From Acidobacteriota bacterium (GTDB taxonomy: Bacteria > Acidobacteriota > Terriglobia > Terriglobales > Acidobacteriaceae): a DNA stretch of 64,000 bases. Position 1 is the stretch's first letter. Each line of letters begins with the position of its first letter. The position numbers and the translations under genes are program-made. Shown here piece after piece: positions 6,332 to 9,062 of the stretch. The stretch is taken from positions 62,001 to 126,000 of the forward strand of contig JAKAJO010000022.1 in NCBI GenBank assembly GCA_021813745.1, written 5' to 3'. Under the pieces are notes generated by a model, which ran no database searches, had not been told where the DNA came from, and saw only the letters and a program-made list of their open reading frames with translations.

Positions 6332-7456
6332 CTATTGCAACAAACGGACCAACTCGACCTGCTCAGCAAGAAAGGCATCATGACCGTGATCGCTCACCAT
6401 TTCGCGATAATCGGCCTGAACCCCTGCCTTGCGAATCGTCTCAGCGAACTGGCGCACCGACTCAGCCGTAAATAACCAGTCTGAGCTGATCCCCACGAAG
6501 CTTAAGCGCGCACGGATTCTACCAAAGACCTCTTCGGGCCGGTCCGACCCGCGCAATGGGTCCCAAGTATCCATGGTGCGCAGAATAGCCAAATAGGAAT
6601 TTGCATCGAAGCGGTCAATAAATCGCTGCCCCTGGTGATCCAGGTAGCCGGCAATATCAAAACGCCCCCCAATTAAGCCTCCCTGCTGGTGCATGGGCGC
6701 CCAAGGATCTTCACCATTCCGATTTGGATTTCGGGCGAAGCGCTCCTCGAACAGTGGAGCCGATTTGTAGCTCAACATGCCAATCTGTCGCGCCAGAGCA
6801 AGTCCGCGCCTGGGCTGGCGATGCGACAGATAGTTGCCCCCCAACCAGTCCGGATCGTTCTGGATAGCCTGGCGTTGCAAATGATTGAGCGCGAGCCCCA
6901 TGGCTCCAAGGGGTGCGACAGCAATTACCAGTGCCCTCTCCACCCGATCAGGATCGTGGACCGCCCACTCGAATGCCTGCATCCCGCCGATGGATCCACC
7001 CAGGACCAGGCGCAGCCGACGTATCCCAAGAGAATCCAGCAGCTGGGATTGGGCTCTTACATTGTCGCGGATCGAGACGAGAGGAAAATCGGGGCCATAG
7101 ATTTGGCCGGTGGCAGGATTCACAGAACCGGGTCCTGTCGACCCGTAACAGGAACCCAGCATGTTGATACAAATGACAAAATCATGCTCGATGGACAAGA
7201 CGGCGCCCGGGGCAAAGATCTCTGGCCACCAGGATCCGACAAGCGCCGACCCCGTCAGCGCGTGACACACAAGCACCGCATTGTCACGTGCGGCATTGAG
7301 CCGCCCGTAAACAGCGTAGTGCAAGGTTGGATTCTCGAGGACTCGTCCGCATTCGAGTTCCAGATTTCCTGGCAGAACAAAATCCCCTTCATATGTCGGC
7401 GTCAGCGGAGGCGTCCCCGCAGGAGCCTCCGCCGCACCGCTTTCAGGTTCCGTCAT
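6332..7456 (-). CDS. metX: homoserine O-acetyltransferase
   Basis: alpha/beta hydrolase fold, LVCHALTGSA, GGSIGGMQAFEWA, DHGHDAFL motifs; adjacent to metY. Confidence 0.92.
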   Translation of the reverse strand: MTEPESGAAEAPAGTPPLTPTYEGDFVLPGNLELECGRVLENPTLHYAVYGRLNAARDNAVLVCHALTGSALVGSWWPEIFAPGAVLSIEHDFVICINMLGSCYGSTGPGSVNPATGQIYGPDFPLVSIRDNVRAQSQLLDSLGIRRLRLVLGGSIGGMQAFEWAVHDPDRVERALVIAVAPLGAMGLALNHLQRQAIQNDPDWLGGNYLSHRQPRRGLALARQIGMLSYKSAPLFEERFARNPNRNGEDPWAPMHQQGGLIGGRFDIAGYLDHQGQRFIDRFDANSYLAILRTMDTWDPLRGSDRPEEVFGRIRARLSFVGISSDWLFTAESVRQFAETIRKAGVQADYREMVSDHGHDAFLAEQVELVRLLQ

Positions 7457-7461
7457 ACCTA

Positions 7462-8805
<1,344 letters not shown>

Positions 8806-8870: not shown

Positions 8871-8902
8871 AAAACAAAACCCGAATCCTCTCAGGACCCG
8901 GG
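8871..8902 (-). terminator. Rho-independent terminator (attenuator) in metY leader
   Basis: Minus strand CCCGGGTCCT-GAG-AGGATTCGGG-TTTTGTTTT: 10-bp stem (two G-U), 3-nt loop, T-rich tail; lies between leader ORF and metY. Confidence 0.8.
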
Positions 8903-8929
8903 CCATGTGCTGCTCAAGTTCGGCTGCGC

Positions 8930-8992
8930 TCAGCGCATTCGCTCAAGAGCCGCACGGACTGGCCCGCACGCCATACACATGCACATGGCCAT
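8930..8992 (-). CDS. Met/Cys-rich leader peptide upstream of metY-metX
   Basis: ATG GCC ATG TGC ATG TGT ATG GCG TGC GGG CCA ... TGA = MAMCMCMACGPVRAALERMR; GAGG SD 8 nt before the second ATG. Confidence 0.65.
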   Translation of the reverse strand: MAMCMCMACGPVRAALERMR

Positions 8993-9032
8993 GACCTCAA
9001 TTCCGTATTCCTCTTGAGTTTGCATTGTTCGC

Positions 9033-9062
9033 AGTATCAACGCTCCACGCCTGCAAAGTCAA
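9033..9062 (-). promoter_or_regulatory. candidate sigma70-type promoter for metY leader
   Basis: Minus strand TTGACT-N18-GATACT upstream of the leader ORF. Confidence 0.45.

Follow-up and report, generated by a model that had tools for sequence, protein, structure and literature searches.

The 64,000-nucleotide stretch of an Acidobacteriaceae genome analyzed here (hereafter the window) carries, on its minus strand and ahead of the genes metY and metX, a short leader which, judging from sequence comparison and structure modeling, very probably functions as a ribosome-mediated transcription attenuator. Promoter, reading frame, regulatory codons, terminator, antiterminator and protector are conserved among related loci, and the computational analysis revealed clustered codons for the product amino acids, an intrinsic terminator, an antiterminator available upon early stalling and a protector. 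Ribosome-mediated attenuation had been suggested in the original prediction and is supported by the comparison, in which codons, frame and terminator are conserved and the antiterminator covaries across the family. The elements of the leader are as follows:

9062-9057, minus strand: -35 box TTGACT, read from the sequence
9038-9033, minus strand: -10 box GATACT, separated from the -35 box by an 18-nt spacer, read from the sequence
9025-8930, minus strand: leader open reading frame (ORF) MQTQEEYGIEVMAMCMCMACGPVRAALERMR*, 31 codons, assigned from the in-frame ATG near the predicted transcription start site in 29/29 genus leaders and in divergent family leaders
9002..9018, minus strand: region 1, the 5' side of the protector, consisting of CTCAAGAG (9018-9011) and TACGGA (9007-9002), deduced from the fold and genus covariation
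8966..8986, minus strand: regulatory codon run ATG TGC ATG TGT ATG GCG TGC (codons 14-20, M C M C M A C)
8942..8966, minus strand: region 2, of which CGGGCCA (8966-8960) pairs with the terminator arm, and TCCGTG (8958-8953) and CTCTTGAG (8949-8942) pair with region 1
8893..8905, minus strand: region 3, the 5' arm of the terminator and 3' partner of the antiterminator (TGGCCCG, 8905-8899)
8904-8878, minus strand: terminator hairpin with a 12-bp core stem and GAG loop, followed by TTTTGTTTT (8879-8871)
8871..8889, minus strand: region 4, the 3' arm of the terminator (8889-8878) and the T-tract TTTTGTTTT (8879-8871)

The leader ORF starts with an ATG at 9025-9023, seven nucleotides past the -10 box, and terminates with a TGA at 8932-8930. 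A 20-codon ORF, MAMCMCMACGPVRAALERMR*, had originally been placed from 8992 onwards; the ORF itself is real, but this start is an internal ATG, and the true start is located 11 codons earlier. On neither strand of the window does any other ATG-started ORF of up to 45 amino acids contain at least eight internal methionine (Met) or cysteine (Cys) residues, and dinucleotide shuffling of the leader region yielded such a Met/Cys-rich ORF in 19 of 5000 cases. No NCBIfam model matched the 20-residue peptide MAMCMCMACGPVRAALERMR.

A MetY-like match was obtained in all 59 same-genus genomes searched, and 30 metY loci were fetched for comparison, 29 of which were fully readable. The whole leader, comprising ORF, promoter and terminator, is present in 29/29 readable loci; the 30th locus is cut by a contig end and still matches the covariance model from position 12. 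Each of the 29 loci has an ATG 6-7 nt downstream of GATACT; it opens the frame in which the Met/Cys run is read, and the distance from it to the second ATG is always 11 codons. Leader length varies between 30 and 34 codons within the genus, with all changes being in-frame (multiples of three). Moreover, an arginine codon always precedes the stop, TGC and TGT interchange freely and the residues flanking the Met/Cys run vary. The alignment proposed as a check of the prediction showed conserved MCMC-type codons, frame and terminator together with synonymous TGC/TGT variation. The promoter TTGACT-N18-GATACT predicted on the minus strand was likewise borne out: the -35 sequence TTGACA/T is kept across the aligned same-genus leaders and GATACT was found at all 29 loci.

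Based on predicted promoter positions, the ATG follows the -10 box by 6-7 nt in most leaders, and 7 nt is the commonest distance between a -10-like hexamer and the leader ATG (62 leaders). Because only seven nucleotides separate the first ATG from the -10 box, the metY leader mRNA is probably leaderless or near-leaderless. A short hairpin spanning the leader stop codon (TGCGC-stop-GCGCA, positions 8925-8937 of the minus strand) was also observed; it is nearly invariant in the genus and perhaps plays a role in ribosome release or RNA polymerase pausing.

The predicted terminator hairpin is present, its stem comprising 12 bp instead of the 10 bp initially described. It is paired in 93.9% of the cells in the alignment count and conserved in genus and family. 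Furthermore, an antiterminator not described in the original prediction was recognized: region 2, which directly follows the Met/Cys run, is complementary to region 3. The two partners read GGACCCG:CGGGTCC in most of the genus, CGGGCCA:TGGCCCG in the window, GGATCC:GGATCC with both sides changed in two loci (L009, L030) and CGTGGG:CCCACG types in other genera. For one genus representative and 33 other leaders, pairing of region 2 with its own region 3 was estimated at -14.09 kcal/mol compared to -11.59 (standard deviation 0.42) for permuted partners, with 0/2000 permutations being as good; such energies come from a model, and the sequences, being related, do not count as independent. In a first cross-pairing test applying long segments, the contrast was no more than modest, every segment being GC-rich.

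With the ribosome placed on the first codon of the run, the predicted probability of 2:3 pairing averaged 0.78, compared to 0.49 when the sequence after the run was shuffled (p 5e-11), whereas its median dropped to 0.37 for a ribosome on the last codon of the run. For 61 of the 62 leaders, it exceeded 0.5 at some codon of the run. The protector is formed by regions 1 and 2: the two halves of the ORF pair with each other, and the Met/Cys codons are located near the loop. In the genus alignment, two-sided changes were counted at 9/16 protector pairs, a value matched by 5/500 shuffles, and moderate strength was predicted for this helix in the absence of the ribosome. Applied to the genus alignment, RNAalifold favored the terminator and missed most of the protector, and structure pairs were therefore counted explicitly.

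According to the proposed mechanism, RNA polymerase would start at the first AUG or slightly upstream of it, and the 31-codon leader would then be translated from its near-leaderless start. When charged Met-tRNA or Cys-tRNA is scarce, the ribosome would stall in the MCMCMAC run near the protector loop. Stalling on the first regulatory codons would open hairpin 1:2 and release region 2 for pairing with region 3, thus permitting read-through into metY-metX. With an ample supply of both amino acids, the ribosome would reach the late codons and the stop, so that region 2 would be covered or pair again with region 1, region 3 would pair with region 4 and transcription would stop. The speed of the ribosome on the leader thereby probably tells the cell whether sulfur amino acids suffice. 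Translation of the leader ORF, for which the conserved frame offers indirect evidence, the stalling signal, the direction of the response and the identity of the amino acid sensed (Met, Cys or both) are inferences in this scheme.

On average, metY leaders contain 4.3 internal Met and 2.8 internal Cys codons. Since both occur in every one of the 57 metY leaders, the plainest reading is a double signal, with Met and Cys being read together. Methionine is an awkward attenuator signal because every ORF starts with it. Without a ribosome, the predicted probability of 2:3 pairing is above 0.5 in 25/29 genus leaders, and it amounts to 0.0-0.09 in the tyrosine-codon leaders described below. It is tentatively proposed, with chances judged to fall slightly short of even, that Acidobacteriaceae possess a family of leaderless, codon-swappable attenuators, the metY member of which is a two-input Met and Cys sensor that is antiterminated by default in this genus. 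If true, default antitermination could allow a shortage of Met, which also slows initiation, to be read as starvation.

To describe the family, loci matched by the covariance model were combined with protein-based and pattern-based loci, each of which was read. With strict filters, the model built from the genus found matches in 36 of the 150 family genomes; among the matches listed, named neighbors are Acidobacteriaceae and Granulicella assemblies. Within the family, at least 17 genera have leaders such as MFFEAHNTIMAMCMICMCGRGLWAASKE and MLTATTNATMAMCMYMLHSRGCLRPVAR ahead of metY. In a second Acidobacteriota family, the leaders RICMCMCSMSGAP / ICMCMCSMSGAP occur before metY in two genomes (L186, L187) belonging to the same genus. 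In a third family, an S-adenosylmethionine (SAM) riboswitch of the SAM-I type is located directly before metY (L153, L154, L155), and in a fourth family a SAM_alpha-like match was obtained that was weak and did not reach the gathering score. Eleven pattern hits (L188, L189, L193-L195, L198, L199, L202, L205, L207, L213) were rejected; they showed no leader-like anatomy and mostly lie inside longer or unrelated frames.

The same architecture was also found with other codons and other target genes. The tyrosine (Tyr)-rich leader MRFTATYAYYYYATLDTGRVRRRMR and two relatives precede phhA, encoding phenylalanine 4-monooxygenase; these leaders (runs YAYYYY, YYAYYY) are followed by a terminator (L051:1440-1640, L053, L160; L159 represents the L053 locus again), and two of the three possess the antiterminator CACGGG:CCCGTG. 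Leaders rich in Met, Cys, threonine (Thr) and isoleucine (Ile), or in Thr and Ile, e.g., MAMCMPCTISGIGTRITTTSRTT and MTQIRSTSRPITTTPGTSVRISTPTPNP, were identified together with terminators before aspartokinase genes (L212:1320-1640, L219, L222). Before homoserine dehydrogenase genes, the leader ITTMAMCMHICTF was identified, and the leaders at L200:1360-1640 and L249 feature the runs MAMCMHIC and MAMRMRF plus a terminator; at L270, a Thr/Ile-rich ORF with terminator was noticed farther upstream of such a gene. Most family homologues of phhA, aspartokinase and homoserine dehydrogenase genes occur without such leaders, and these targets are therefore sporadic.

Cys-richer leaders (MCMCCC, MCMCMCCPC; MAMCMCMCCPC type) precede a gene for a RimK-like ATP-grasp protein (L061/L179, L190, L191, L204, L206). 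Wherever the downstream gene was read (L179, L190, L204), it encodes an SfnG-like LLM monooxygenase, which suggests a sulfur acquisition operon. The codon identity thus tracks the downstream gene: Tyr for phhA, Met/Cys/Thr/Ile for aspartokinase and homoserine dehydrogenase, and more Cys for the sulfur operon. Such a leader codon code allows the function of uncharacterized downstream genes to be guessed. As separate observations, locus L215 features a MAMCMCM leader-like ORF with terminator before a small protein (L215:1500-1700) and, close by on the opposite strand, an ORF with an extreme Met/Cys content that may encode a copper-binding protein (L215:2054-2404).

Three other explanations of the leader were weighed. 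Copper and mercury are bound well by Met and Cys, and the peptide itself might stall the ribosome upon binding a metabolite or metal. The MAMCMCM motif is indeed more regular than a codon counter requires, and the leader-like match at L215 is situated near the possible copper-binding protein gene. Such nascent-peptide arrest is nevertheless considered unlikely: the architecture recurs with Tyr before phhA and Thr/Ile before aspartokinase, matching the product amino acid in each case, the genes downstream belong to amino acid and sulfur metabolism, and the residues around the run vary. A sensor reading codons is thus likelier than a metal-binding peptide because related leaders carry other codons. 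That the small ORF encodes a functional protein, or the RNA ending at the terminator acts as a small RNA, within a constitutive 5' untranslated region (UTR) not regulating metY appears very improbable. A terminator after a small ORF would likewise release a short RNA, but the antiterminator would then serve no purpose; moreover, the upstream gene is divergent, so the terminator does not mark the end of another minus-strand gene. Direct sensing of SAM or tRNA by a variant of the SAM riboswitch or T-box, the ORF then being incidental, is given a chance close to negligible. SAM-I does precede metY in another Acidobacteriota family (L153-L155), but an Rfam scan of the leader detected no SAM aptamer and no T-box at the gathering level, with only an unrelated chance match at a relaxed threshold, and all length changes preserve the frame, being multiples of three.

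Several results weigh against attenuation by the translating ribosome as the explanation, or narrow it. Many sampled genomes of the same family lack a close MetY, and the leader element is therefore not universal in the family; furthermore, no leader is visible ahead of this metY in one family member (L144). For the window leader, 2:3 pairing is predicted with a probability of 0.68 even without a ribosome. Because 2:3 pairing is predicted to be high in this state, the protector of this genus does not constitute a strong block by default. Finally, the antiterminator helix alone showed little covariation beyond shuffles within the genus, which was not significant, because the helix is nearly invariant there; the strong signal originates from the wider family.

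The genes downstream of the leader were identified as follows:

8807-8802, minus strand: Shine-Dalgarno sequence GAGGAG of metY, read from the sequence; the metY ATG is at 8796
7462..8796, minus strand: metY, O-acetylhomoserine aminocarboxypropyltransferase / homocysteine synthase (O-acetylhomoserine sulfhydrylase), matching NF006096 (739 bits) and TIGR01326, both above cut-off
6332..7456, minus strand: metX, homoserine O-acetyltransferase, matching NF001209 above cut-off

These profile matches confirm metY-metX as the downstream genes, and a metY with its own Shine-Dalgarno sequence after the hairpin was correctly predicted. The two genes are separated by 5 nt and form an operon. MetY is annotated as homocysteine synthase, and its subfamily is annotated for cysteine synthesis, too.

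Known control of methionine genes involves SAM riboswitches, T-boxes or repressors. A literature search, with most subscription journals outside it, retrieved no description of a methionine leader-peptide attenuator. The mechanism class is textbook knowledge, and the Met/Cys version before metY is apparently new. In a survey from 2010, almost no predicted Acidobacteria attenuators have an associated function (PMC2965389).

The trp, his, thr, ilv and leu attenuators of Proteobacteria resemble the metY leader in combining a short ORF rich in product codons with a mutually exclusive antiterminator and intrinsic terminator. Protector pairing as in the metY leader is a feature of the leu and ilv attenuators. 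The metY leader differs from these systems in its Met/Cys codons, its metYX target, its probably leaderless mRNA and its occurrence in Acidobacteriota, and the likeness described here is one of architecture. Small ORFs with Cys codons also precede sulfur genes in Actinobacteria: for the leaderless Cys-rich upstream ORFs of mycobacteria, Cys attenuation was speculated (PMC4633059), and Cys-codon leaders of actinobacterial cys operons were reported without obvious terminators (PMC1262725). In contrast to the latter, the metY leader possesses a conserved intrinsic terminator and antiterminator and more Met than Cys codons.

In the Gram-negative Xanthomonas campestris, methionine controls the met operon via a 5' UTR for which similarity to a SAM-I aptamer and a mainly translational mode of action were reported; neither leader nor terminator appears as a word in the portion of that article searched (PMC6230763). 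SAM-I (RF00162) and other SAM riboswitches control methionine biosynthesis genes as well, including metY in another Acidobacteriota family, whereas no aptamer match was obtained in the window and the proposed sensor is the translating ribosome. Acidobacteriota families would thus differ in the control of one and the same gene, metY: a peptide attenuator in one family, SAM-I riboswitches in another.
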